From an uncultured Lachnospiraceae bacterium (lineage in GTDB: Bacteria > Bacillota > Clostridia > Lachnospirales > Lachnospiraceae), in the NCBI GenBank assembly GCA_947628045.1, contig CANQYP010000005.1, positions 1-36,776 of the forward strand: a stretch of DNA of 36,776 nucleotides, given 5' to 3'. The first letter of the stretch is position 1. Each line of letters starts with the position of its first letter. Below, piece by piece: positions 3,322 to 36,776 of the stretch. A program made the position numbers and the translations under genes. A model generated the notes under the pieces. The model was not told the DNA's origin. It did not search any database and was given only the letters and a program-made list of their open reading frames with translations.

Positions 3322-5433
3322 TTATTCCTCTGACGCATTCTCCCCAGTCTGCTCCGGCTGGGCAACCGTCCCGACATCACTCGTCGGCGCTGTCTCCCCG
3401 GTCTGCTCCGGCTGGGCAACCGTCCCGGCATCACTCGTCGACGCTGCCTCCTTAGTCTGCTCCGGCTGGGCAGCTGTCTCCTCGACCGCCTTTTCGCTGA
3501 TGCGGGAGACCGGTTCTTTCTTCTCGTCCTCCTCGGAGATTCCCTCGACCTCGTGGAAGATCTGCATGAATTCCTTGCCGGTGATCGTCTCCTTCGCGAT
3601 CAGGAACTCCGCGATCTTGTCGAGCGCCTTGCGGTGCTCGGTCAGCAGCCGTTTCGCCTCCTCGTAGGAGTCCTTGAGCACTGCCATCACTTCCTGGTCC
3701 ACGTCCGCCGCCGTCGCGTCGCTGCAGTTCATGATCGGACGGTTGTCGAGGTACTGGTTCGCCTGCACCTCAAGCCCCATCAGCCCGAAACGCTTTGACA
3801 TGCCGTACTGCGTCACCATCGCGCGGGCGATGCGCGTCGCCTTCTCGATGTCGTTCGCGGCTCCGGTTGTCACCGTGTCGAAGACAAGCTCCTCCGCCGC
3901 GCGCCCCGCCACGCACTCGACGAGCATCGCGCGGATCTCTTTCTCGGTGTTCAGGTACTTCTCTTCCTCCGGCACATTCATCACATAGCCGAGCGCGCCC
4001 ATCGTGCGCGGCACGATCGTGATCTTCTGCACCGGCTCGGAGTCCTTCTGCAGAGCGCTCACCAGCGCGTGTCCTACCTCGTGGTAAGAGACGATCCTGC
4101 GTTCTTCCTTGCTCAGAATACGATCCTTCTTCTCCTTGCCGACAAGCACGATCTCCACCGACTCGAACAGATCCTTCTGGGAAACCGCCTTGCGCCCCTG
4201 CTTGACCGCGAGGATCGCCGCCTCGTTGATCATGTTCGCGAGGTCCGAACCCACCGCGCCCGAGGTCGCCAGCGCGATCGCCTCGAGATCGACGGTCTCG
4301 TCCATGTTGACGTCCTTGGAATGCACCTTCAGGACGTCGATGCGCCCCTTAAGGTCCGGCTTGTCGACGATGACGCGCCGGTCGAAACGTCCCGGACGCA
4401 GCAGCGCCTGATCCAGCACCTCCGGGCGGTTCGTCGCCGCCAGCACCAGCAGCCCCTTGGACGTGTCGAACCCGTCCATCTCTGCCAGCAGCTGGTTCAG
4501 CGTCTGCTCGCGCTCGTCGTTGCCGCCGCCGTAACGGCTGTCACGACTCTTGCCGATCGCGTCGATCTCATCAATGAAAATGATACACGGCGCGTTCTTC
4601 TTCGCCTCCTCGAACAGGTCGCGGACACGGGAGGCGCCGACGCCGACAAACATCTCCACAAAATCCGAACCGGAGAGCGAGAAGAACGGGCACTTCGCCT
4701 CGCCGGCGACCGCCTTCGCGAGCAGCGTCTTGCCGGTGCCCGGAGGTCCCACAAGCAGCGCGCCCTTCGGGAGCTTGGCGCCGATCGTCGTGTACTTGCC
4801 CGGATTCTCCAGGAAGTCGACGACCTCCTGCAGCGACTCCTTCGCCTCGTCCTGCCCCGCGACGTCCTGAAACGTCACGCCGGTCTCCTTCTGCACATAC
4901 ACCTTCGCGCGGCTCTTGCCGACGCCCATGATCCCGCCGCTGCCGCCGCCCATCCGGCGCATCACGAAACCGAAGATGATCCAGATCATCAGTACAGGGA
5001 ACACAAACGTCACGAGCATCTCCACGATCATCATCGACGTGGTGTCCGGGATCTCCTCGGTAAACTTCACATCCGCGCGCCGCAGCCGCTCGATCAGGTT
5101 CGGGTCGTCCGGGTTCCCCGTATAATAGGTCGTGTTCCCGGTGCCCAGAATATCGGAAAGCGCCTCGATCGTCTTCATCTCGATCTCGATGCGCGAAGAC
5201 GTGATCGTCACGCGCTCGACTGTCCCCGCGTCAAGCCGATCCAGAAATTCATCGTATGTGATCTCGACCGCCGCCGTGCTGTTTCTCATATTGTTCAGCA
5301 TCGCCACCGCCAGAATGGCTACCAGCGTCACGATCAGAAAAATCGTGAACGTGGAGCGGTTCTTGTTCGGATCCCCCTGGGGTCCCTGACCCCCTCCTGA
5401 CGGGCGATTGTTTCTCTGCTGGTTATTGTCCAT
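3322..5433 (-). CDS. ftsH: ATP-dependent zinc metalloprotease FtsH
   Basis: A 703-residue membrane-bound AAA protease that degrades misfolded membrane proteins and short-lived cytosolic regulators. There are two membrane segments (about 27-47 and 130-157) around an extracytoplasmic domain. Walker A is GPPGTGKT (229-236), Walker B is IIFIDEID, and the second region of homology is [19 protein letters not shown]. The zinc site is HEVGH (451-455; most FtsH have HEAGH), with D528 in AANDIEKAT as the likely third ligand. After the protease domain comes a low-complexity acidic tail of about 60 residues rich in Q, P, E, T and S, encoded by a 54-bp tandem repeat. RBS GGAGGAACC precedes the ATG. It is transcribed divergently from pyrG from its own promoter. 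Confidence 0.97.
3340..3490. repeat. 54-bp tandem repeat encoding the FtsH C-terminal tail
   Basis: The block beginning GTCTGCTCCGGCTGGGCA starts at 3347, 3401 and 3455, an exact 54-base period (18 codons), with about 2.5 copies. The first two units are nearly identical and the third diverges. On the coding strand it encodes repeats of the form [10 protein letters not shown]...TSD. The reading frame is kept, so copy-number change would lengthen or shorten the tail without breaking the protease. Confidence 0.85.
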
Positions 5434-24936: not shown

Positions 24937-24957
24937 CTGCTTACCTCTGCCCTCTTT

Positions 24958-26124
24958 TTAATCCGCTTTTATCACATAGGACTCCGTCTCCGTCGGTTTC
25001 CCCTGCCGCCGCAGCGAATGCTCCGCGAGACGTTTCACAAGATAATACAAGGTCGCGAAGAGCGGAACGCCGACGATCATGCCGAGGAACCCCATCAGCT
25101 TGCCGAAGAGCAGCATCGCGACCGTCACGTACAGGGCGGAAAGCCCGGTCGAATTCCCGAGGATCTTCGGTCCGATGATATTTCCGTCGACCTGCTGCAG
25201 GGCGATGACAAAGATCAGGAAGACGACGCATTTCACCGGCGAGACCAGAAGGATCAGGAACGCGCTCGGGACCGCGCCGATGAACGGTCCGAACATCGGA
25301 ATGATGTTGGTCACGCCAACGATGACGCTCACCAGCAGCGCATACGGCATCCGCAGGATCGTAAGCCCGACAAAACAGATCACGCCGACGATCAGCGAGT
25401 CCACCAGCTTGCCCGAGATAAATCCGCTGAAGATGCGGTCGGTCTGCGCGACCGCCTCGAGCACGGCGTCGTTGAACCGCTTGTTGCGGCTGACCGCGAA
25501 GAACAGCTTGCGGCACTGCGCGAGATAGCGCTCACGATCCAGGAGCAGGTAGATCGACACGATGACCGCCACGCCCAGGCTGATCAGCAGCGAGCCGATC
25601 GAAAGCACGCGGCCGGAGATCGCGGAAACGGTGGAAAGCATGTTCGTCCGGATCCAGCCCGCCAGATAATTCTCCGCGGACTCGATCATCTGCATCACCG
25701 CCGCGCCCGCCTCGCTGTCCGATTCCAGATACACCCTCAGCCGGTCGAGCTGATCCTGCACCTGCCCGGGCAGCACCTTCACCAGCTCGCTGACGCTCCC
25801 CGCAAGCTGCGGAAGGACGATCGCACAGAACAGCCCCAGCACCGCGAACGCGAAAAGCATCGTCACCAGCACCGCCGCGATCCGCGCGAATTTGCCGAGC
25901 TTTCCGAACGCCCGCTCCAGCCTCCTCGCGATCGGGGTCAGCAGATAAGCCAGCACCATGCCGATCAGCAGCGGCTTAAGCGCCGACAGGATGACCGCCG
26001 CCATTTTCCGAATCTCTCCGAATCGGAAGATCAGAAAGAAAAAAACGATGGTCGCCGCCAGGCTGACAAAAATCGTCACTCCAAGTTTCCAATAACCCTG
26101 ATCCTTCTTTTCCATAACACACAT
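24958..26124 (-). CDS. AI-2E family transporter (PerM/YtvI-like membrane protein)
   Basis: A 388-residue membrane protein with seven to eight helices in the AI-2E/UPF0118 pattern: two N-terminal helix pairs, a long amphipathic region (about 95-165), then C-terminal helices including PYALLVSVIVGVTNIIPMFGPFIGAVPSAFLIL, the family hallmark with the NIIPxFGPFIG motif. Family members have been tied to autoinducer-2 export, cation/proton exchange and general efflux, so no substrate is assigned. GAGGG seven bases before the ATG at 26124 supports this start over the ATG at 26115. It sits between the adenylation enzyme and addB with short gaps. Confidence 0.9.
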   Translation of the reverse strand: MCVMEKKDQGYWKLGVTIFVSLAATIVFFFLIFRFGEIRKMAAVILSALKPLLIGMVLAYLLTPIARRLERAFGKLGKFARIAAVLVTMLFAFAVLGLFCAIVLPQLAGSVSELVKVLPGQVQDQLDRLRVYLESDSEAGAAVMQMIESAENYLAGWIRTNMLSTVSAISGRVLSIGSLLISLGVAVIVSIYLLLDRERYLAQCRKLFFAVSRNKRFNDAVLEAVAQTDRIFSGFISGKLVDSLIVGVICFVGLTILRMPYALLVSVIVGVTNIIPMFGPFIGAVPSAFLILLVSPVKCVVFLIFVIALQQVDGNIIGPKILGNSTGLSALYVTVAMLLFGKLMGFLGMIVGVPLFATLYYLVKRLAEHSLRRQGKPTETESYVIKAD

Positions 26125-26167
26125 CCCTCTCTTACTGAATCCATCTTATATCGCTGTCCGCCGCCTA

Positions 26168-27676
26168 TCAGAAATGCGCCCGCAGCGCCTGCAGATCCTT
26201 CTTTCCGTTCGGCAAAAGCGGGAAATCCGCGAGGCGCACGACCCTCCCCGGAGCCATGTACCCCGGCAGGGTCCCCCGGAAATACACCGTGATCTCCTTC
26301 GGCTCCGCCGTTCCTGTATAGAAGAGATACAGCTTTTCCTTCTGAGCGTCGTACAGCGCGCAGCACTCCTCGATCCCCGCCATCTGCCTCGCCGCGCCCT
26401 CGATCTCGTCGAGCTCGATACGGTGCCCCAGATGCTTGACCTGACGGTCCTTTCTCCCGTGGAACTCCAGCAGCCCGTCCTCGCGGTACCGTCCGAAATC
26501 GCCGGTCCTATAGAGCAGCTCCCGGTAGTCGGGATTCAGCGGGTTCTGGATAAACGCCTCCGCCGTCTTCTCCGGGTTTCCGTAATAGCCGAGCGCCAGC
26601 CCGGCGCCGCCGACGCAAATCTCGCCCAGCTCTCCCGGCGCGCTTTCCGAGCCGTCCTCCTTCAGCAACAGGATCCTGTAATTCTCATACGGCACACCGA
26701 TCGGGAGCACTGTGTCCTCCGAGACTTCCCCCTCGACCACGTAGTAGGTGCAGGACGCCGTCGCCTCCGTCGGTCCGTACTGATTCACATACCGGACGTC
26801 CGGCAGGTTCTGCTGCCAGTATTTCAGATCGCGTCCCGGCAGCACGGAACCGGAGAAACAGACCTTTTTCAGGTACTGCGGTTTCGATGCGCCGAACGCG
26901 CGGAGCCGGGCGAGCAGCTCCAGTCCTGCGGCGCTCCAGCACAGCGCCGTGACCCGGTTGGCGTTGAGCGTCTCAAAGAGCTGGCGCGGCATGGAAAATT
27001 CATTCTTAGGGATAATGACCGTCGACGCGCCGGTCCGGATCGGCAGGTAGATGTCGCGGACCGCCGCAATGTAGTCGAGCGGGGACTGGCTCCCGAAGAC
27101 CTCCGTCTCATCGACCTGGAGCACCTTGCGCACGGCGTCAATGTAGCACATCAGCGAATGCTGCGATGTGACGACGCCCTTGGGGACGCCCGTCGACCCT
27201 GACGTGAAGATCACGTAGAGCGGCGACTGCGCCGTGAGCATGCCCGCCGCCCGCCGCAGCAGCTCCTCATCGGGCGGCGTCTGCAGAATATCCTCCATGA
27301 CGACGATCTCCCCGGAGAAATCCAGTGCCTTCGCCGTCTCATAGCTCTCCCGGTCGACCAGCATGCAGTCCGCCTTTACGACGTCCATCATCTGCCTGAG
27401 CCTCGCGGGCGGCACCGTCGCGTCCATGGGCGCATAAAAACAGCCGGCACGAACCACGCCCAGAAAGCATGCCGGCGTGAAGACATGGCGCCCCGTCATC
27501 ACAAGGACAGGACGGCACGCAGGAACCTTCGCCGCCAGGCAGCTGCCGATCGATCTGGTCAGCCTGTCAAACGCGCCGAAGGTAAGCGCAGACCGCGCAT
27601 CCCGGAACACGACCTTATCCGGATAGCGCGCCACTGCCTCGTCCAGCCAGTTCAAAACCGATGTATCCAAACACAT
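26168..27676 (-). CDS. Stand-alone amino acid adenylation enzyme (DltA/NRPS A-domain-like)
   Basis: A 502-residue ANL-superfamily enzyme. Core motifs are FTSGSTGVPKG (157-167), YGPTE (300-304), YRTGD (389-393), GRKDRQVK (407-414) and the C-terminal lysine in PNGKKD (K492). D201 in SPLDYIAAVRD lies near the amino-acid-binding aspartate position of NRPS A domains. The length and gapless layout resemble DltA, which charges D-alanine onto a carrier protein for teichoic acid, but no dltB, dltC, dltD or carrier-protein gene is in the window. It therefore either loads a carrier elsewhere or makes a free aminoacyl product. GGAGG is only two bases before the ATG; a TTG two codons in, at 27670, has better spacing and may be the true start. 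Confidence 0.85.
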   Translation of the reverse strand: MCLDTSVLNWLDEAVARYPDKVVFRDARSALTFGAFDRLTRSIGSCLAAKVPACRPVLVMTGRHVFTPACFLGVVRAGCFYAPMDATVPPARLRQMMDVVKADCMLVDRESYETAKALDFSGEIVVMEDILQTPPDEELLRRAAGMLTAQSPLYVIFTSGSTGVPKGVVTSQHSLMCYIDAVRKVLQVDETEVFGSQSPLDYIAAVRDIYLPIRTGASTVIIPKNEFSMPRQLFETLNANRVTALCWSAAGLELLARLRAFGASKPQYLKKVCFSGSVLPGRDLKYWQQNLPDVRYVNQYGPTEATASCTYYVVEGEVSEDTVLPIGVPYENYRILLLKEDGSESAPGELGEICVGGAGLALGYYGNPEKTAEAFIQNPLNPDYRELLYRTGDFGRYREDGLLEFHGRKDRQVKHLGHRIELDEIEGAARQMAGIEECCALYDAQKEKLYLFYTGTAEPKEITVYFRGTLPGYMAPGRVVRLADFPLLPNGKKDLQALRAHF

Positions 27677-27708
27677 TCCCTCCGATCTCCCGATCTGTTT
27701 TGTCCATT

Positions 27709-27737
27709 ATTCTACACCAGATATACCCCGAATGCAA
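27709..27737 (-). promoter_or_regulatory. Possible promoter of the adenylation-enzyme gene
   Basis: On the minus strand TAGAAT (27714-27709) is preceded at 17 bases by TTGCAT (27737-27732). The -35 match is only partial. Its placement about 33 bases before the start codon is suitable. Confidence 0.35.
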
Positions 27738-27768
27738 TGTTTTCACATTTTCAAATTTTCAAAAAAAC

Positions 27769-27797
27769 TTGACAATAGATACGCATTATCCTATTAT
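27769..27797 (+). promoter_or_regulatory. Strong promoter of the amino-acid ABC transporter operon
   Basis: TTGACA (27769-27774) and TATTAT (27792-27797) are 17 bases apart. A TATAAT at 27799-27804 is badly spaced from the -35 box and is probably incidental. The stretch upstream is A/T-rich (UP-element-like). Confidence 0.8.
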
Positions 27798-27849
27798 TTA
27801 TAATGTAGGCAGAATTGCCGAATCGTTTTCATGAAGGAGGAGGATTATT

Positions 27850-28671
27850 ATGAGAAAACTGACAAAAGCATTTGCTGCACTTGGACTTGGCGCCGCGCTC
27901 GCGGTCACCGCAGTTGTCCCGGCTATGGCTGAGGAGAAGACCTGGGTCATCGCGACCGACACGGTATTCCGCCCGTTCGAGTTTACCGATGAGAACGGCG
28001 ATTTCGTCGGAATCGACGTCGACATCGTAGCCGCGATCGCTGAGGATCAGGGCTTTGAGTATGAGCTGCAGAGCCTCGGCTGGGATTCCGCCATCGCAGC
28101 GTGCCAGTCCGGTCAGGCGAACGGCATGATCGCAGGCGCTTCCATCACCGATGAGAGAAAGGAAAGCGGCTGGATCTTCTCGGACGGCTACTACAACGCT
28201 ACCCAGTCTATGACGGTTCAGGAGGGTTCCGATATCACGAGTTTCGCGGATCTGGAAGGCAAGACCGTCGGCGTCAAGACCGGTACCCAGGGTGCGTCCT
28301 ACGCGGAGAGCCTGAAGGAAGAGAACGGTTTTGAGATTACATACTTCGAGGATTCACCGACCATGTACCAGGCAGTGCTCGGCGGACAGGTCGTGGCTTG
28401 TTTCGAGGATACGCCGATCATGGCGGACTCCATCAAGAGCGGCAACCTTGCCCTGCAGATCGTGGAAGGTTCCGAGAATGAGGGCGCACCGTACGGTTTC
28501 GCGATCTTCAACGAGGACAACCAGGAGCTGCTCGACATGTTCAACGAAGGACTGAAGAACATCAAGGAGAACGGCACCTACGACGAGATCATCGCGAAGT
28601 ACCTTGGCGATGCCGCGGAGGCTGAGACGGAGTCCGAGCTCGAGACCACGGCGGCTGAGGTTGCAGAGTAA
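27850..28671 (+). CDS. Polar amino acid ABC transporter substrate-binding protein
   Basis: A 273-residue extracytoplasmic binding protein of the SBP_bac_3 (GlnH/HisJ) family. A signal peptide with AMA cleavage after about residue 27 is clear, but there is no lipobox cysteine, which is unusual for a Gram-positive ABC binding protein. Ligand-binding features are the early FRPFEFTDENG and GIDVDIVAAIAED, then GMIAGASITDERK (the arginine binds the ligand carboxylate) and GKTVGVKTGTQG. The acidic tail (DAAEAETESELETTAAEVAE) is extra to the family. A strong AAGGAGGAGG precedes the ATG. It is the first gene of the operon and is followed by a terminator that should raise its level over the permease and ATPase. 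Confidence 0.93.
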   Translation: MRKLTKAFAALGLGAALAVTAVVPAMAEEKTWVIATDTVFRPFEFTDENGDFVGIDVDIVAAIAEDQGFEYELQSLGWDSAIAACQSGQANGMIAGASITDERKESGWIFSDGYYNATQSMTVQEGSDITSFADLEGKTVGVKTGTQGASYAESLKEENGFEITYFEDSPTMYQAVLGGQVVACFEDTPIMADSIKSGNLALQIVEGSENEGAPYGFAIFNEDNQELLDMFNEGLKNIKENGTYDEIIAKYLGDAAEAETESELETTAAEVAE

Positions 28672-28711
28672 TTTTCAGAGAAATGCACTGATTACAATGT
28701 CGTAATCCAAG

Positions 28712-28743
28712 GGGCACTGAGGTCTTGCTCAGTGCCCTTTTTT
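28712..28743 (+). terminator. Internal terminator/attenuator between binding protein and permease
   Basis: GGGCACTGAG (28712-28721) pairs perfectly with CTCAGTGCCC (28728-28737) and is followed by six T (28738-28743). The permease ribosome site begins right after, so downstream genes depend on read-through. Confidence 0.85.
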
Positions 28744-28757
28744 GAAAGGAGCTGTCT

Positions 28758-29432
28758 ATGGCTAAAATCATCTCAGGCTACGGGCCTCTTCTGCTGCGCG
28801 CGATGGGACAGACGCTGCTGCTTGCGCTGTGGGGACTGTTCTTCGCCTGCATCATCGGTATGTTTTTCGGATTGCTGGGCGTGGTGAAGAATCGGCTCTG
28901 CAACATCATCGAGAGCGTGTTCGTGGATGTGATCCGCGGCGTCCCGCTGATCGTCCTCGCCTACTTCATCTATTTCGGCATTCCGTTTGCCATCAACAAT
29001 CTCCTGGGCGCGAGCGGCTTTACGCTCTCGGCGCTGCAGGCAGGCACCGCCTGTCTCGCCCTGAACTGCGGCGCGTACATGGCGGAGATCATCCGCGCCG
29101 GCATCCAGTCCGTGGACGCCGGGCAGATGGAGGCGGCGAGGAGCCTCGGACTTCCCTACTGGCGCGCGATGGTGCGCGTCGTCCTCCCGCAGGCGATCCG
29201 CACGATGATCCCCACGATCATCAACCAGTTCATCATCACCCTGAAGGATACCTCGATTCTTTCCGTCATCGGCTTTCCGGAGCTCGTCAACACGGCAAAG
29301 AACGTCGTCGCGATCACCTTTATGTCCTTCCAGACCTGGCTGATCGTCGGCGTCATGTATCTGATCGTCATCACGCTTCTGTCCTTTGCGGCAAAGCGTC
29401 TGGAGAGGAGGCTGAACCGTGGACGTCAATAA
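28758..29432 (+). CDS. Polar amino acid ABC transporter permease
   Basis: A 224-residue permease of the HisM/GlnP (PAAT) family with about five helices. The opening [22 protein letters not shown] and the cytoplasmic EAA loop, [24 protein letters not shown], fit the family; the loop docks onto the ATPase. One permease type is present, so the channel is probably a homodimer. AAAGGAGC precedes the ATG. Its last 14 bases overlap the ATPase gene. Confidence 0.94.
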
Positions 29433-30165
29433 AAGCAACGTAAAGATCCATGTATCGCACCTGAAGAAATCCTTCGGCAGTCTGGAAGTTCTCAAGGACA
29501 TCTCCAACGACTTCTATGAGGGCGAGGTGGTCGTCATCCTCGGACCGTCCGGCTCCGGGAAATCCACGTTCCTGCGCTGCCTCAACCGTCTGGAGGACAT
29601 CACCGGCGGCGAGGTCGTGGTCGACGGCTTCGACATTACATCGAAGAAAACGAATATCAATAAATACCGCGAGAACATCGGCATGGTCTTCCAGCATTTC
29701 AATCTGTTCCCGCACATGGACGTGCTGCGCAACATCACGCTGGCTCCGGTGGATCTGAAAAAGATGACAAAGGAAGAGGCGGAAAAACGCGGCATGGAGC
29801 TGCTCAAACGCGTTGGTCTGGAGGAGAAGGCGAAGGTCTACCCGCCCCAGCTCTCCGGCGGACAGAAACAGCGTGTCGCGATCGCCCGCGCGCTCGCGAT
29901 GAACCCGGACATCATGCTCTTCGACGAGCCGACCTCGGCGCTCGACCCGGAGATGGTCGGCGAAGTGCTGCAGGTCATGAAAGAGCTCGCCGCATCCGGC
30001 ATGACGATGCTGGTCGTCACGCACGAGATCGGTTTCGCACGGGAAGTTGCCAGCCGCGTGATCTTCATGGACGGCGGCTACATCGTCGAGGAAGGGACGC
30101 CGGACGAAGTGTTCAATCACCCGAAAGAGGCGCGCACCATCGACTTCCTGAACAAAGTGTTATAA
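29419..30165 (+). CDS. Polar amino acid ABC transporter ATP-binding protein
   Basis: A 248-residue ATPase of the GlnQ/HisP type. Walker A is GPSGSGKST (42-50), the signature motif is LSGGQKQR, Walker B is IMLFDEP, and the switch histidine is in VVTHE. It starts with GTG, supported by GGAGG seven bases upstream inside the permease gene, and overlaps that gene by 14 bases, a sign of coupling. The amino acid carried by this system cannot be told from these sequences. Confidence 0.95.
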
Positions 30166-30168
30166 CAA

Positions 30169-30280
30169 GTTCAGTCATGCCGACATCAGCCACGGCGAGA
30201 GCTGCGTTAGCCAGCGAGAGCTTTTCGCAGAAAGCGGCTGCGACGCAAAGCTAGTCCTGAAAGGATGGCATGAATGAGCC
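30169..30280. repeat. Structured palindromic intergenic element sharing a 16-mer with the pyrG leader
   Basis: GTTCAGTCATGCCGAC at 30169-30184 is identical to 5579-5594 in the pyrG leader. The other end, GGCATGAATGAGC (30267-30279), is an imperfect inverted copy. Nested inside are AGC/GCT with GCGT/ACGC (30200-30252), AGCC/GGCT (30209-30212, 30236-30239) and GCTTTT/GAAAGC (30220-30235). It sits between the ABC ATPase and the kinase-like gene and has no ORF. Confidence 0.5.
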
Positions 30281-30301
30281 GGAAAAGAAAAGGAGACCCT
30301 C

Positions 30302-30886
30302 ATGAAGAAAATAGTCACGATCAGCCGTGAATTCGGCGCGGGCGGCGGCACGATCGGCTACCGCCTCTCCGAGGAGACCGGTCTGGAATATTATGACAAA
30401 GAATTGATCCTGATGCGCGCCGGCAAGGGAAACGTAGACCTCTACAGCCTGATCAAGTGGGACGAGAGCGTGCCGATCAACTTCGGTTTCACGCAAAGTC
30501 TCTTCGACTTCTACAACCGCCCCTTAAGCGAACGCATCTTCCAGGCGCAGAAAGAGACGATCCAGCAGGTCGGCGAGAAGGGCAACTGCATCATCGTGGG
30601 GCGCAATGCCAATACGATCCTGAAGGAATACGACAAGACGCTGCACGTCTTCATCCACGCGAGCATCGAGTTCCGCCTGGCGCGCATGAAAAAAGAAATG
30701 CCGGACCAGACAGATCAGCAGATCCTCGAACGCATCCGCAAGGTAGACAAGCAGCGTAAGAAATACTGCACCTACCACACGCACACAGAGTTCGGCGACT
30801 CCCGATACTACGACGTGTGCCTCGACTCCTCGCGTTTCGGCATCGACCGCTGCGTGGAGATTCTGAAAGAAATGATTCTGGAATAG
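30302..30886 (+). CDS. Cytidylate kinase-like family protein
   Basis: A 194-residue P-loop protein of the Cytidylate_kin2 (PF13189) type. It starts IVTISREFGAGGGTIG (P-loop near 12-19), has a GNCIIVGRNAN strand and a basic lid region (RLARMKKEM, RIRKVDKQRKKYC). This family resembles CMP kinase, but its members are usually additional to the true Cmk and their substrate is not established. AAAAGGAGACC precedes the ATG. It follows the ABC operon after a palindromic element, so it may be transcribed from its own promoter or by read-through. Confidence 0.88.
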   Translation: MKKIVTISREFGAGGGTIGYRLSEETGLEYYDKELILMRAGKGNVDLYSLIKWDESVPINFGFTQSLFDFYNRPLSERIFQAQKETIQQVGEKGNCIIVGRNANTILKEYDKTLHVFIHASIEFRLARMKKEMPDQTDQQILERIRKVDKQRKKYCTYHTHTEFGDSRYYDVCLDSSRFGIDRCVEILKEMILE

Positions 30887-30890
30887 CACA

Positions 30891-30943
30891 GACAGCGCCA
30901 AAACGCAAATGGGGCAGGGTCAAAAACGACCCTGCCCCGCAGC
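30891..30943. repeat. Hairpin repeat copy 1 (also convergent terminator)
   Basis: The core GCCAAAACGCAAAT is followed by GGGGCAGGGTC (30911-30921), loop AAAAAC, and GACCCTGCCCC (30928-30938): a perfect 11-base-pair stem. Two related copies lie near 32.4 and 33.65 kb in the same orientation. This copy lies between convergent genes and probably ends both transcripts. Confidence 0.85.
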
Positions 30944-31423
30944 TTATCCCTTTTCTCTCAACTTCCGCAGCAATTCCACGCCTCTTTGAATTGTTTCCTC
31001 TTCCCCCAGTCCCCTCGCCTCAATGATCCGTTCCACCGCCTGAGCCGGGTCAAGCGAATGATACGGATAATATAGGTTTTTAAGCTCCTCCGGCTTGATG
31101 ATCTTATACAGTCTCTTGCTGCTGATCTCCCGCATATAACACCAATATCGGTAAATGTACCCCATCCAGTACAACTCTTCCGTATCGTATTTTGTCTTCC
31201 CGTAATCGGAATCCCCATACTCTTCCGTTATCTCCTGAATCAGATTATCCGGAGACGATGCCTCGAGCAAAAAACCTTCCCCATCCATTCTTCTGGCTGC
31301 ATCGGAATACATAAAGCGTCGCAGAAAAACCGGAGAACTGCACTCCGCCTGTTCTCTGGAAACAGAAAATAAATTCGCCTGATACCTGCACAACTTCAAG
31401 CCGTATTCATCTATCTCTCTCAT
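30944..31423 (-). CDS. Probable antitoxin partner of the HTH-DUF3990 protein
   Basis: A 159-residue soluble protein without membrane segments or signal. It contains SSPVFLRRFMYSDAARRMDG, then EELYWMGYIYRYWCY and LYYPYHSLDPAQAVERIIEA. I recall this conserved pattern from genes paired with DUF3990 proteins, often labelled antitoxin, but cannot verify it here. Its start overlaps the stop of the DUF3990 gene by four bases (ATGA), so the two are coupled and the DUF3990 gene is first. The codon and base use are more A/T-rich than upstream core genes. Its stop abuts hairpin repeat copy 1. Confidence 0.65.
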   Translation of the reverse strand: MREIDEYGLKLCRYQANLFSVSREQAECSSPVFLRRFMYSDAARRMDGEGFLLEASSPDNLIQEITEEYGDSDYGKTKYDTEELYWMGYIYRYWCYMREISSKRLYKIIKPEELKNLYYPYHSLDPAQAVERIIEARGLGEEETIQRGVELLRKLREKG

Positions 31424-32280
31424 CTCACGATCTCCTCAATGTACCGCCCCTGTCCTCGGTACTGCTTTCTTGCAATCTTTACTTTATCCAGACTGATATT
31501 GACAGACTCCCTGCCGGAGCGCAGATAATATTCCTTCTCTTCGGAGCAGAGATAACAATGCTCCAAGATCTGTATCTGCCCCAAAGCCTTCTCCGTCAGG
31601 AAAACATATTGATTTCCCAGATTTGTCGCAGATAAACAGTGTTTGCACTGCACGTCTGTAATCTCTCCCTCCACAAAACTATCAATAATCTCAAACATCC
31701 TGTTGTCCGCAATCGGCGCTATGATATAATCTATGCCCTTAATACCAGCAATTAATTCCGAGATAACAGCGGAATTTTCAAATTCCTTTAAGCGTCCCCG
31801 AAAATATGCAATACTCAGCATCCAATCCCGGTCTACTGTAAATCTCTTTTCGCGCAATCCCGCAGGATCAAAATCGATCATATACAGGGAAGACTTCGGA
31901 AAGCCTAAAACGAACATCACCGATTGCTCCAGATTCTCACCGCAATAAAATCCCTGTCCGAAATCATTATTTTTCCTCGATTTCGTTATGTCAAGTTTCC
32001 CGTCTATCACCGTTTTCGCGCCATGAAACAAAACGCGATGAGATCCATTGGAATACTCTTCCTTATACAATTGTTCCTTTATTTTATTTAATCGAATTCC
32101 CCTTCTGAAAGCCATGCCGTAGAAAGCAGACAGATTGATCTGGCGTATCTTACTCTCATCGAGTCTCCAGTTGTTCAGTGTCATTCTGGACACTCCTATC
32201 TCATTCGCAACCTCACTGCTTGTCATTTTCAATAATTCTTTTACTATCTCTATATCATTCACAATTCTGTAATCCGCCAT
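31420..32280 (-). CDS. HTH-DUF3990 protein, candidate ADP-ribosyltransferase-like toxin with built-in DNA-binding domain
   Basis: A 286-residue protein. Residues about 10-60 form a Cro/CI-like helix-turn-helix (KMTSSEVANEIGVSRMTLNNWR). From residue 84 the DUF3990 pattern follows: LFHGAK with H86, then DFGQGFY (106-112), GIDYIIAPIADNRMF and QYVFLTEKAL. The HG...DFGxGFY layout recalls the NAD-binding core of ADP-ribosyltransferases; that enzymatic role is inference. Joining an operator-binding head to the putative toxin would let the protein repress its own promoter, which is flanked by matching repeats. The overlapping downstream gene is the probable antitoxin. The segment is A/T-rich compared with the core genes, a sign of transfer. 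Confidence 0.75.
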   Translation of the reverse strand: MADYRIVNDIEIVKELLKMTSSEVANEIGVSRMTLNNWRLDESKIRQINLSAFYGMAFRRGIRLNKIKEQLYKEEYSNGSHRVLFHGAKTVIDGKLDITKSRKNNDFGQGFYCGENLEQSVMFVLGFPKSSLYMIDFDPAGLREKRFTVDRDWMLSIAYFRGRLKEFENSAVISELIAGIKGIDYIIAPIADNRMFEIIDSFVEGEITDVQCKHCLSATNLGNQYVFLTEKALGQIQILEHCYLCSEEKEYYLRSGRESVNISLDKVKIARKQYRGQGRYIEEIVR

Positions 32281-32296
32281 TCATGCCCTCGCTCTC

Positions 32297-32374
32297 AAAC
32301 TTATTTGTAAAGTATTATACTGCATTCTTTCCCATTCGTCAAACTTATTTATAAAATACTTTACATATAAGTTT
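32297..32374 (-). promoter_or_regulatory. Promoter and operator array of the HTH-DUF3990 operon
   Basis: On the minus strand TTGACG (32342-32337) and TATAAT (32319-32314) are 17 bases apart, a near-consensus promoter. Around it are three copies of a motif close to AAACTTATWTGTAAAGTA: one at 32297-32314 touching the -10 box, and two facing each other as a palindrome at 32341-32374 (AAACTTAT...ATAAGTTT) touching the -35 box. This is a classic layout for autorepression by the encoded HTH protein. Confidence 0.7.
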
Positions 32375-32382
32375 ATCAAGAC

Positions 32383-32496
32383 CGATGCCGAAACGCAAAC
32401 GGGGCAGGGTCAAAAATCGACCCTGCCCCGCTCAGTCATCTAATTTTGATGTTTTTGCGGCTTTCTCCGCCGCCTATCTCTTTTGCACCTTTCCAG
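32383..32496. repeat. Hairpin repeat copy 2 (extended form)
   Basis: The core GCCGAAACGCAAAC is followed by GGGGCAGGGTC (32401-32411) and GACCCTGCCCC (32419-32429). Similarity to copy 3 continues for about 65 more bases (CATCTAATTTTG, then TATCTCTTTTG, then a C/T-rich end). It occupies much of the 351-base gap between the nuclease and HTH-DUF3990 genes; the rest of that gap holds the operon promoter and, at 32497-32631, nothing I recognise. Confidence 0.85.
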
Positions 32497-32631
32497 TCCA
32501 TCTCCTGATATATAGAATTCCTCTGCACCACATATTTATGAAATCCGCCGAAATCGGCAGAAACAGTCTCTCAGCTTTGGATCAAACGGTTCCTCCTCTG
32601 TGTGTGAATCGGCTTTTCCGCACACCGTCTA

Positions 32632-33513
32632 TCACGGCTGCGCATCGCAGGAAATACTCCGCACAAACTCCTCCACGGAATTTGCCGATCTCGCCTGTCT
32701 CAGGTAGCGTTTCAGCGTTTCCTCGTCCTTCTCCGCAAGGATCGCATTCTTCAGCTCCTCCGGCACTGCATCCGGTAAATCTGCCAGCAGGTCCAACACT
32801 GCCTCCGCCTTACCTTCTGTCCTGCCTTCCGCCTTGCCGGCTTCGTGTTCTTCCTGCAACATCTCCTGGAATATCATATACCTCGCCCCCATTTCCCGGC
32901 TCGCCTTCACGCCCCGCACCGCATCCTGCAACCGGCGCACATAGGCATCCTCTGACTCTTTCGTGCTCTCCTGCAAGCTTGCTCCTATGTATCGCAGAAA
33001 GCTGACAAGACACTCCGGCACTTCTTCCTGGTTCTCCCCGCGGGTGCTCAGGAACATCGTCGTCTGCCCGTTCTTAAGGGCAAACCCACTCTCCTCCAGG
33101 CACATGTTCCGGAATGTATAACGATACCTTCCACAATCAAACGGATCAAAGTCGCAGATAAAGATCACGTAAACATCCGGGAGGCTCTCATAGCCGCAGC
33201 CCCGCGCCAGCAGGTCCATGTCGATCTGGCTGTGATAGTACCTCGCCCTGCGCTCCAGCGCCGGTTTCGGGACCACCTGCATCTCGACGTTAAATCGAGT
33301 ATGGCTCTCGTCACTCGCCTCAACGTCCAGACGCACTCCCTTGTACTCCGGGTGGTACACCAGGCTCTTCTCGGTGCTGACCGTCAGCCTACCGATCGGG
33401 ACGCCAAGCGCCATCTCTAGGAACGGTCTGCAGTTCTCCGGGTCGCTCATCACAGCCCCGAACATGAAATTGTCCTTCATCGTCAGCGTTTCCAGTTTTT
33501 TGAATTCTGCCAT
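32632..33513 (-). CDS. Rpn-family PD-(D/E)XK nuclease (recombination-promoting nuclease/putative transposase)
   Basis: A 293-residue protein of the PDDEXK_2 (PF12784) family. The nuclease core is D63 in GVRLDVEA, then E77-M-Q79 in RFNVEMQ, an acceptable ExQ variant of the PD-(D/E)XK site. The N-terminal MKDNFMFGAVMSDPENCRPFLEMALG is typical. The C-terminal part has the EAGKAEGRTEGKAEA repeat often seen in this family. E. coli RpnA relatives promote RecA-independent recombination. GGAGG lies seven bases before the ATG, and a TATAAT with partial -35 lies upstream. The gene sits between hairpin repeat copies 2 and 3. Confidence 0.9.
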   Translation of the reverse strand: MAEFKKLETLTMKDNFMFGAVMSDPENCRPFLEMALGVPIGRLTVSTEKSLVYHPEYKGVRLDVEASDESHTRFNVEMQVVPKPALERRARYYHSQIDMDLLARGCGYESLPDVYVIFICDFDPFDCGRYRYTFRNMCLEESGFALKNGQTTMFLSTRGENQEEVPECLVSFLRYIGASLQESTKESEDAYVRRLQDAVRGVKASREMGARYMIFQEMLQEEHEAGKAEGRTEGKAEAVLDLLADLPDAVPEELKNAILAEKDEETLKRYLRQARSANSVEEFVRSISCDAQP

Positions 33514-33553
33514 ATATTATCCTCCACTCTGGGCAGAGGAATTCTATGCATCC

Positions 33554-33582
33554 ATTATAGAACAGTGGGGCAAAAAATACAA
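33554..33582 (-). promoter_or_regulatory. Possible promoter of the Rpn-family gene
   Basis: On the minus strand TATAAT (33559-33554) is preceded at 17 bases by TTGTAT (33582-33577). The -10 is perfect; the -35 matches three of six. Confidence 0.5.
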
Positions 33583-33640
33583 GCAATAAAATGTTTCATG
33601 GACCGGGAACTCAAATCGTTCAAGCTTGCGTGCAGAAATC

Positions 33641-33753
33641 AGCGCCGAAACGCAAACGGGGCAGGGTCAAAAAACACCCCTGCCCTGCTCAACCATCTAA
33701 TTTTGTTGCTTTTGCAACACTTTTCGCAACTTATCTCTTTTGCGCCTCCCCAG
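33641..33753. repeat. Hairpin repeat copy 3 (extended form)
   Basis: The core GCGCCGAAACGCAAAC is followed by GGGGCAGGGTC (33658-33668) and ACCCCTGCCC, a slightly degraded stem. The downstream half matches copy 2 (CATCTAATTTTG, TATCTCTTTTG, CCAG end) and adds a TTGC/GCAA hairpin. It ends three bases before the BCCT stop codon. Confidence 0.85.
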
Positions 33754-33756
33754 CTC

Positions 33757-35286
33757 TCAGGATTGCCGTCTCTCATTCATGTATTCTTTGGCATCTTTAA
33801 TAAACCCAACAATCATGACAATCATAATGATGCCGATTGGAAACGCGCTTATGATACTCACACTCTGTATGTTATTCATACTGCTTTCTGAAAACACCAA
33901 TGCAATTGGAAGTACAATGAGCAACAGGCACCAAAGCAAGGTGATCATGGCATGCGGCTTTTCATCCTGCCCCAGTTTCTTATAGCTATAGCATGCCGCT
34001 GTATATGCAATCGAGTCAAACGACGTGGCATAAAACGCTACCATACACACAAGGGTCAGCACCAAAATGAACGTCGCACATGGCATAGTATTAATGATGT
34101 TCAGGATCAGCTCATACAGGTCGCCACTTGTTTCGTACTGTGCAATGAAATCCGCCGCACCTTTAGTCTGGAGGCTGAGGCTGTAATTCCCAAGAATGAT
34201 AAAGCTCACGATCGTCGAGCCAACGCCAAAAACATAGCCGCCGAGAACCGTCTGCCTCACCGTCCTGCCACGGCTGATATTCCCGATAAAGAAAGGTGCG
34301 GCGATGCTCCAGACCATCCAGTACGCCCAGTAATAGATCGTCCAGTCCTGCGGAAAATTATTAGACCTCGACGGGTCTGTATATGTGGATAGCTCAATAA
34401 AGTTCTGGAACATCTTCCCCAGGGACTGAAACCCGTTCTCAATGATAAAACGCCCCTGCCCGCCAACCACCAACACGAAAATGAGCAGTCCAAAGAAAAG
34501 ATATATGCAGAGCTTTGCGAGAAAACCTATGCCCTTAAACCCATGCATAACAGCATATGTGTACACGGCGCAAGTGAGCAGCAGGATGATAATCGTGACC
34601 GTGGTACGGCTGATGCTCAGCCCGGAAAGCTTTAGGATTATGCCTGCCATAAGCGGGGTCGCTACCGAAAACGTGGTCGCTGTCCCAGCCAGGAGCGCAA
34701 ACAACGCAAAAAGGTCAATCACCCTGCCGAGGATGCCATCCGCACGGCCACCGATCACAGGGCGGCACGCCTCCGAATAGCGCTGCCTGTCACGTTTCCT
34801 GACATGGAGCATGAACCCAAAGGCGACTGCAAGCACAAGATAAAATGCCCACGGGATAAAGCTCCAGTGGAACAGAGGGAACACCCCTGCCCATTCCGTG
34901 ACACTGCCCATCTCAGCGATATGAGGGTTTGCCGCATACATGACCCACTCCGAGAAGGAATAAAACAGGATATCCGCCGCAAGACCGCAAGTGAACATCA
35001 TGCTGCCCCAGGTAAAAAATGAATACTTCGGTTTCTCATCCGGCTCCCCGAGTACAATGTCTCCATATTTAGAGAAAGCCAGAAACGCTGAGACAGCCAA
35101 CATCCCAAGCCCGATCACAAGATAATACAGCCCGACCGTATCGCCAAAGAAAAACCTGACCTGGCTTATCACCCGGTTCGACTGTTCCGGGAAAATAAAA
35201 AGCAGACCAGCCACCCCGCCGATCAAAACAAATGGCACCAATGTGACCAGCCAATCAATCCTGTTTTTATTTGCTTTTGTCTCCAT
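33757..35286 (-). CDS. BCCT-family transporter (betaine/carnitine/choline type)
   Basis: A 509-residue carrier with about twelve helices. The family pattern is clear in the WTIYYWAYWMVWSIAAPFFI helix, followed by GNISRGRTVRQ. The early FFTWGSMMFTCGLAADILFYS helix also fits. BCCT carriers bring in or exchange quaternary amines such as glycine betaine, carnitine, choline or proline betaine. The gene lies 119 bases downstream of an MttB-type methyltransferase on the same strand, so its likely cargo is the methylated amine used by that enzyme, for example by substrate/product exchange. The ribosome site is weak (GGAAGAG). Confidence 0.93.
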   Translation of the reverse strand: METKANKNRIDWLVTLVPFVLIGGVAGLLFIFPEQSNRVISQVRFFFGDTVGLYYLVIGLGMLAVSAFLAFSKYGDIVLGEPDEKPKYSFFTWGSMMFTCGLAADILFYSFSEWVMYAANPHIAEMGSVTEWAGVFPLFHWSFIPWAFYLVLAVAFGFMLHVRKRDRQRYSEACRPVIGGRADGILGRVIDLFALFALLAGTATTFSVATPLMAGIILKLSGLSISRTTVTIIILLLTCAVYTYAVMHGFKGIGFLAKLCIYLFFGLLIFVLVVGGQGRFIIENGFQSLGKMFQNFIELSTYTDPSRSNNFPQDWTIYYWAYWMVWSIAAPFFIGNISRGRTVRQTVLGGYVFGVGSTIVSFIILGNYSLSLQTKGAADFIAQYETSGDLYELILNIINTMPCATFILVLTLVCMVAFYATSFDSIAYTAACYSYKKLGQDEKPHAMITLLWCLLLIVLPIALVFSESSMNNIQSVSIISAFPIGIIMIVMIVGFIKDAKEYMNERRQS

Positions 35287-35405
35287 CTAACCCCACTCTT
35301 CCTTTCTCTCCTATATGCAGGTTTTTATATGATCCAGTTCTCAAGCTTATCAATCCAGGTATAAACAAGTCATTTTGCGGTCACACGGCAATCATTCTCA
35401 GGCTC

Positions 35406-36776
35406 TTACAACGCTAATCCACATTTTTCAAGATATCTTTTCAGTTTTACCGTTGTGTCATCCGCCAGTACGGTCTTCCCTTCTTCAATGATCTCCTTAA
35501 CCTTTGCCCCCGCACGTTTTTCGATATCAGGATAATCCTGCTCCTTCCATCTGTCGTAAAGGTTCCAATCCGACATAGAGGTCTGCCAGCCGTCATGGAG
35601 ATAGTCCAGCGTGGAATCATGCATCAGGAAATTTTCCCCATGGGCAGTCTCCATGATAATGTCCACGGAAAGCGTCTCGTCAGAGATCTCGATCCCCTGA
35701 ATGATTCTCCGCACACGTGAAATAACTTCATCATCAATAATCGTCTTTTCAAAGGAGAGGGACAGCAGGTTCTCCATTGAGCCCGCTGACTGGCTGGTCA
35801 CATCCACATCCATCAGCGCAGTCAGGAGCAAACTCTGCATGGTCTCGTAACCCGCCTGATAGTCCAGGCATTTAGAGCTTGTAACGCCGGTTTGCGCCCT
35901 TGCGGGAAGATGATAAAAGTCTTTATACATCTGAATTGCCCCAGCCAGCATCAATGCCGTATCCGGGCTTGCACATTCCCAGGAAGCGATCTTAAGGTTC
36001 CCATATGTGAGGGAGGCCGACGGGAGCACCGGAATCCCCGGACGGACGCACTGAGCCAGGCAGAGCCCTGCAAGAGTCTCTGTATTTGCCTGAACGATCG
36101 TCCCCAAAATATGAATCGGCGACGTGATCCCGGACATCGGCGCAGACACCAGCGCTACTGGCTGACCGCTTGCCGCAAACTCCATGATGGATTCACAAGA
36201 TGCCCGGTTATAAACCAGCGGGCTCTCCGGGGTGACAATGCTCCATGTCACATAATGACTCCTCACAAACTCCTCCCCAAAAACAAGCCGATACATATCG
36301 ATCTCCCGGCGCTTATCCTCCGCCCCGCCGACATCCATCGGCGCAAGCCACGGCTTGTCCGTATACAGCATCGTTTCATAAAGACACCTCAGCCCCCTTG
36401 CCTCCAAAGGGACATCGGATGGCGACAGCGGCTGGTATCCGGTCATATCGATATTATCGCAGACCTGATATATCTTCTGCAGATTGATAAAATCCTGGAT
36501 CCCTGTCTGCGCGCGGCGCACGCCGCCACATTCAATCAAGGCAACTTCCCCACCGGCCGGATGTATCGTAAGATGCCCTTCCCCTATCGTCACAGACTTA
36601 TTCGGGTTCACTGCCTCCATTCTGAAGGACGCCGGCACAGTCTTCAGGCAGGATTCCACCAATTCACGGGACAGATATACAATCTCACCATCGATTTTTA
36701 CCCCCCCCGCTCCCTAAAACGCTCTATCGCCTCCGTTGAACGGAATACCACCCCTTTGTGTTCCAAAAGGTAAAGC
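35406..36776 (-). CDS. MttB-family (non-pyrrolysine) quaternary-amine methyltransferase, frameshifted and cut by the window edge
   Basis: The open frame 35406-36662 (418 codons, apparent TTG start) encodes most of a trimethylamine methyltransferase-family protein: SAPMSGITSPIHILGTIVQANTE, SSKCLDYQAGYE, and a C-terminal helix-rich end. Relatives without pyrrolysine (MtgB, MtpB, MtcB) demethylate glycine betaine, proline betaine or carnitine onto a corrinoid protein. The true start is further upstream: KIDGEIVYLSRELVES precedes the TTG in the same frame, while EHKGVVFRSTEAIERFRERG lies just before it in another frame. The two join at a run of eight G on the coding strand (36708-36701); six or nine G would restore one frame. 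So the gene is a pseudogene, phase-variable, or affected by a sequencing error. No corrinoid-protein gene is in the window. Confidence 0.8.
36701..36708. other. Homopolymer tract (C8 on plus strand) at the methyltransferase frameshift
   Basis: Eight C in a row (G8 on the coding strand). Reading frames on the two sides both encode MttB-like sequence but differ by one base, and the tract is where they meet. Such tracts are prone to slippage in replication and in sequencing. Confidence 0.75.

Follow-up and report, generated by a model that had tools for sequence, protein, structure and literature searches.

A poly-G tract in the 5′ coding region of an MttB-like methyltransferase gene as a candidate phase-variable switch in an uncultured gut Lachnospiraceae bacterium

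The window analyzed in this study is a stretch of 36,776 bases that comprises an entire contig (C5) of a genome assembly of 2.68 Mb in 258 contigs with 91% completeness. One end of the window is occupied by a transporter gene and an MttB-like methyltransferase gene, the latter of which runs off the contig and lacks approximately its first 22 codons. A search of the assembly's other contigs found no overlapping contig with the missing gene end. The features of this region are as follows.

36709–36775, minus strand: start-proximal portion of the MttB-like gene in the upstream frame LYLLEHKGVVFRSTEAIERFRE, available from about codon 23 and truncated by the contig end
36701–36708, minus strand: G8 homopolymer tract (C8 on the plus strand), immediately 3′ of which the upstream frame runs into TAA
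35406–36701, minus strand: remaining 3′ portion of the MttB-like gene, read in a shifted frame that is open to its stop codon, identified by PF06253 and by identity to the homologue in genome L002
33757–35286, minus strand: intact gene of a BCCT-family (betaine/carnitine/choline) transporter of 509 aa (PF02028, E = 2.8e-124)
33656–36776, no strand assigned: segment with the transporter and methyltransferase genes, unmatched in 35 other genomes of the genus, G+C content 50%

Between the G8 tract and the contig end lie 68 bases, and its position at approximately codon 45 of 478 places the tract in the 5′ coding region. On the minus strand, the upstream frame reads LYLLEHKGVVFRSTEAIERFRERGG and terminates straight after the tract, the other frame reads ...GGVKIDGEIVYLSRELVESCLKTVPASFRMEAVNP..., and the homologous continuation past the tract is GGVKIDGEIVYLSRELVES.... 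In a tblastn search, the 478-aa MttB-like protein of L002 aligned to both sides of the tract in two frames, with 74% identity to its residues 23–49 on the 5′ side and 86% identity to residues 42–478 on the 3′ side. These alignments bear out the original prediction, made from the sequence of the window, that the methyltransferase gene is frameshifted at a G8 tract and that MttB-like protein is encoded in different frames on its two sides. The TTG codon at 36662, which the ORF caller used, is merely the first start codon past the frameshift and was thus rightly regarded as an artefact. G or C runs in the window numbered 29 of length 5, one of length 6, none of length 7, and one of length 8, and 0.7 such runs would be expected under an order-3 Markov model for which the window, including the tract, served as training sequence. 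The run by itself is therefore weak evidence, as it is compatible with chance under this model, and the argument for a switch has to be based on homologous tracts.

The product of the MttB-like gene matched the MttB superfamily (PF06253) with 293.5 bits (E = 1.1e-87; curated cut-off 25). An assignment to the pyrrolysine-containing trimethylamine methyltransferase MttB (TIGR02369) was rejected, because the score of 253 bits (301.8 for the L002 protein) is far below the equivalog cut-off of 525. Neither an in-frame TAG nor another internal stop was present in the frame 3′ of the tract. The nearest solved structures by sequence were the glycine betaine methyltransferases of the DSY3156/MtgB type (PDB 2qne and 9yce; E = 6e-77), which likewise represent a pyrrolysine-free branch of the MttB family. 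The DSY3156/MtgB type is a betaine enzyme that is not known to be associated with a choline kinase.

In relatives, the MttB-like gene follows a RACo-type activator, a winged-helix/cytidylyltransferase/choline-kinase fusion, and a second cytidylyltransferase, and it precedes the BCCT gene, which is the final gene of the operon and in the window shares 87% identity with the BCCT of L002. The L005 genome encodes a corrinoid protein, a DUF2284 protein, and a URO-D/MtaA-type methyltransferase upstream of this gene series. Choline kinase (PF01633), NTP transferases, and RACo are carried by L002 (L002:46-6843), and B12-binding, DUF2284, URO-D, and RACo proteins by L107 (L107:6039-9933). In L002 and L107, LicA/LicC-like genes for choline kinase and cytidylyltransferases share one operon with the genes of a corrinoid methyltransferase system and a BCCT transporter. 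In Eubacterium limosum, choline demethylation proceeds via the kinase MthK and then the MttB homologue MthB, which acts on phosphocholine, and the system also includes a corrinoid protein and a methyltransferase (PMC12155760). An MthK/MthBCA-like gene set is present in the relatives L002 and L107, whereas the contig of the window has the MttB and BCCT genes only, and a corrinoid protein was not found elsewhere in this 91% complete assembly. By analogy with E. limosum, phosphocholine would be the likeliest substrate of the MttB-like enzyme. The quaternary-amine use that was originally proposed can be narrowed, based on the choline kinase in the operon of the relatives, to the putative demethylation of phosphocholine or choline.

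The segment with the two genes differs from the remainder of the window in its G+C content (50% versus 59%), and a protein search found no MttB-like gene in genomes of the same genus. The adjacent region at 24941–33655 matched genomes of the genus at approximately 67–90% nucleotide identity (88–90% for the best matches), which for this part rules out mis-binning of the contig. A PDDEXK_2 transposase-type gene adjoins the segment, and close relatives of the operon are scattered over several clostridial groups. Because of the missing genus match, the lower G+C content, and the neighboring PDDEXK_2 gene, the segment probably represents the terminal part of an operon gained by horizontal transfer.

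Ten homologues of the MttB-like protein were retrieved from 85,000 species genomes. The five closest (81–87% identity) were all found in MAGs labelled Lapin (rabbit), which belong to different clostridial groups. Among 392 genomes of the order, only two homologues besides that of the window were detected, one of them in the L005 genome, and therefore the tract could not be traced through a densely sampled tree. No further homologues were found in viral contigs. Two of the rabbit gut genomes, L002 and L003 (86–87% protein identity), have nine G at this position and keep the frame open (...RRGGVK...). The run is short or interrupted, and the frame open, in L004 (CGCGGTTC), L005 (GCGGGGGC), and L006 (AAGGGAGC), and the more distant L007–L011 likewise have an open frame without a long run. 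This comparison, which had been proposed together with the original prediction, agrees with the expectation that six or nine G would fuse the two frames and eight would not, as nine G occur in frame in two relatives; L004–L006 have no tract. Since three of the five close relatives lack the tract, the switch is not required for the enzyme. The tract alleles (RGGVK) are one residue longer than the G-A-K form of the family, as would be expected if the tract had grown by slippage in one step of three.

The identity at fourfold-degenerate sites among the window, L002, and L003 sequences was close to saturation (0.37, 0.45, and 0.37 for the three pairs). Accordingly, dS was >2, saturated, or not estimable, dN was approximately 0.07–0.085, and the resulting dN/dS was well under 0.1 for the MttB-like gene, which indicates strong purifying selection. 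The G run thus appears to have outlasted nearly all neutral similarity in a protein that is still under selection. As the silent sites are nearly saturated, the tract must have persisted for long, or else have arisen anew at the identical position, and it is this recurrence at the same codon in saturated relatives, rather than the run alone, that constitutes the strong evidence. The sister sequences L003 and L004 were 0.90–0.97 identical on both sides and 0.56–0.61 identical right around the tract (at about 3900–4000), which suggests a local replacement of a short stretch centered on the G run, representing either a gain of the tract in L003 or its loss in L004.

Several features of a gene that is phase variable by slipped-strand mispairing at a simple sequence repeat (SSR) are thus found at this locus. 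The repeat is a slippage-prone homopolymer in the 5′ coding region, a length change by one unit toggles the frame (G8 leads to the stop, G9 in L002 and L003 to 478 open codons), and the tract length differs among related alleles with intact flanks (G8 in the window, G9 in L002 and L003). Moreover, the assembly contains approximately 16 runs of G8 or longer (G8–G11) in 2.68 Mb, and these, together with promoter-spacer runs from G7 upward, include the following sites.

C11:15718, C49:2024 and 3838 (one of them G7), C82:20 and 3784 (L044, L049, L053): promoter-spacer runs of G7–G9
C12:1–11 (L045): G11 in the N-terminal coding part of an ORF resembling MBOAT acyltransferases, at the extreme contig end
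C52:1649–1880 (L050), C209:1302–1310 and 2799–2806 (L054): four small ORFs with a G8–G10 tract before an ELDD(D/N)ALEQAAGG segment
C47:67–74 (L048): gene of a LytTR response regulator whose Shine-Dalgarno region is formed by a G8, near the contig end

The five spacer runs are located between TTGACA/C and a −10 box, 5′ of genes for signal-peptide proteins with Big_2, GLUG, and fn3 domains. The MBOAT assignment was made through a homologue from the same genus. In the four small ORFs the tract lengths are 8, 9, 9, and 10, and the assembled length appears to be frame-breaking in all of them. These ORFs possibly encode phase-variable peptides with a double-glycine leader; HMM searches for small-peptide families yielded just a weak ComC match (E = 0.19) and do not support leader homology.

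We favor, with a probability of about 0.6, the interpretation that the G8 tract serves as a contingency switch for a methyltransferase of the choline pathway, operates by slipped-strand phase variation, and was caught in the OFF state, because of the in-frame G9 tracts in two relatives, the purifying selection, and the presence of further G tracts at contingency-type sites. Slipped-strand mispairing at the poly-G near codon 45 would toggle the MttB-superfamily enzyme between ON, at tract lengths that are multiples of three as in the G9 relatives, and OFF, at lengths such as G8, where translation would stop right after the tract and yield a peptide of approximately 47 aa. The assembly would then have captured an OFF length, and we infer that the tract length probably varies within the population. 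In the ON state, the enzyme would demethylate phosphocholine, provided by the choline kinase of the operon, and transfer the methyl group onto the corrinoid protein in analogy to MthB of E. limosum. Switching would thereby set whether imported choline serves as methyl donor or is available for other uses, such as CDP-choline formation and surface decoration.

An unlikely alternative is an error of the assembly or consensus, in which the major tract length is actually nine, the gene is intact, and the G8 is a product of stutter and thin read coverage close to the contig end. At only 68 bases from that end, the tract lies where consensus sequences are least dependable, and the two relatives with a tract each have nine G. 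Of the 16 tracts of G8 or longer, four have a contig end no more than 75 bp away (P ~7e-5). Either mixed tract lengths among the reads or difficulties in sequencing G runs would produce such clustering, which therefore cuts both ways. One-base errors at a G8 are uncommon in short-read consensus sequences, which counts against such an error, as do the four small leader-like ORFs of the same genome, where mixed lengths are the rule. Sequencing reads do fail in G tracts, and Illumina reads in particular are disturbed (PMC9187656). The tract would stay a slippage site even if the error were real.

A recent and irreversible inactivation, with an acquired gene starting to decay and the frameshift having fallen in its most mutable site, is in our view rather improbable. 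A foreign operon might decay, and the segment is indeed unmatched in the 35 other genomes of the genus and deviates in G+C content; the corrinoid partner was not seen in the assembly; and the terminal branch of the window protein is long (0.12, compared with 0.03–0.07 for L002–L005 and 0.15 for L006) in a six-protein tree that is poorly resolved. However, the 418 codons that follow the spurious start have no stop or second frame break (the first ~22 codons and the upstream genes being beyond the contig end), the transporter gene has no lesion either, and dN/dS is low. A corrinoid gene, if present, would be expected upstream in the operon as in L107 and hence past the contig end. Purifying selection and the intact transporter speak against an old decay. 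Where the original prediction had offered phase variation or decay, the G9 relatives, the selection, and the other G tracts thus strengthen the former, and long-standing decay is disfavored. It is very improbable that G8 is the normal length and that some full-length enzyme arises because ribosomes shift by −1, or RNA polymerase slips, on the G run before the TAA: G GGG GGG followed by a stop is formally slippery and the needed shift is −1, but the intact relatives are in frame with nine G, which makes recoding unnecessary, and ribosomes slip poorly on G_GGG_GGG.

Most known slippage switches act on surface structures of pathogens, and a contingency switch of the methyltransferase gene can be compared with several described systems. 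In Bifidobacterium breve, the G-tract switches bbr_0113 and bbr_1889 of sortase-dependent pili change by replication slippage in both directions (PMC9187656). As in the window, the gene concerned belongs to a gut commensal and has an intragenic G run toward its 5′ end, on whose length the fusion of two ORFs depends. In B. breve, however, a run of approximately nine to twelve G controls a surface pilus and its lengths were measured by maximum-depth sequencing (PMC9187656), whereas here the gene is that of a catabolic methyltransferase and the variation is deduced from relatives. The lic1 locus (licA) of Haemophilus influenzae confers phase-variable phosphorylcholine (PMC2992063, PMC3291618). 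Its choline-handling operon, with choline kinase, cytidylyltransferase, and transporter genes, is likewise switched by slippage of a repeat located early in the coding sequence. In licA, the repeats are tetranucleotides within the kinase gene and control surface phosphorylcholine; unlike in lic1, the repeat described here is poly-G and resides in a methyltransferase gene that adjoins LicA/LicC-like genes. The MthK-MthBCA system of E. limosum resembles the operon in combining an MttB-superfamily enzyme with a choline kinase, a corrinoid protein, and a cobalamin methyltransferase, and no tract is mentioned in the consulted passages of its description (PMC12155760). The operon studied here differs by its additional LicC-like cytidylyltransferases and BCCT transporter, and its substrate is putative. 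In the open-access literature, we found no report of phase variation combined with MttB-type enzymes and no direct report of homopolymer phase variation in Lachnospiraceae or clostridia. Hence, the type of mechanism is well known, and the target and setting are new. If the switch exists, the demethylation of choline or quaternary amines, which is a rival of trimethylamine formation, would vary from cell to cell; annotation by gene presence or absence would miss this trait, and the gene would be annotated as a pseudogene or short ORF.

The pattern of a poly-G run in a promoter spacer was detected in 11 of 40 genomes of the genus, with no matches of a reversed-pattern control, and in 73 of 392 genomes of the order, where the reversed pattern had 5 matches. 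A poly-C version occurred in 22 genomes of the order and its reverse in 7. Most of the spacer G runs adjoin the −10 box, and the total spacer comprises approximately 15–20 bases. Paralogous promoters with the same flank but unequal run lengths were observed as well (G9 and G10 in G016; G9 and G7 on C49 of G000). This pattern looks like spacer-length phase variation. In Neisseria promoters of the porA/opc type, poly-G between the −35 and −10 boxes alters the spacer length; this likeness concerns the other tracts of the genome and proteobacterial surface genes, whereas the MttB tract is coding. The spacer G runs thus have the appearance of phase-variable promoters of a class common among gut clostridia, and no report of such a class was found. 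More tentatively, the gut clostridia of this order may possess an unrecognized poly-G "phasome", defined here as spacer-length promoters of secreted proteins plus 5′ coding tracts, which would also have captured a horizontally spread choline-demethylation operon, and individual cells would then switch randomly between using the methyl groups of choline and sparing choline. A LicD-type protein is also encoded in this genome, and phosphocholine might, speculatively, have a competing use at the cell surface.
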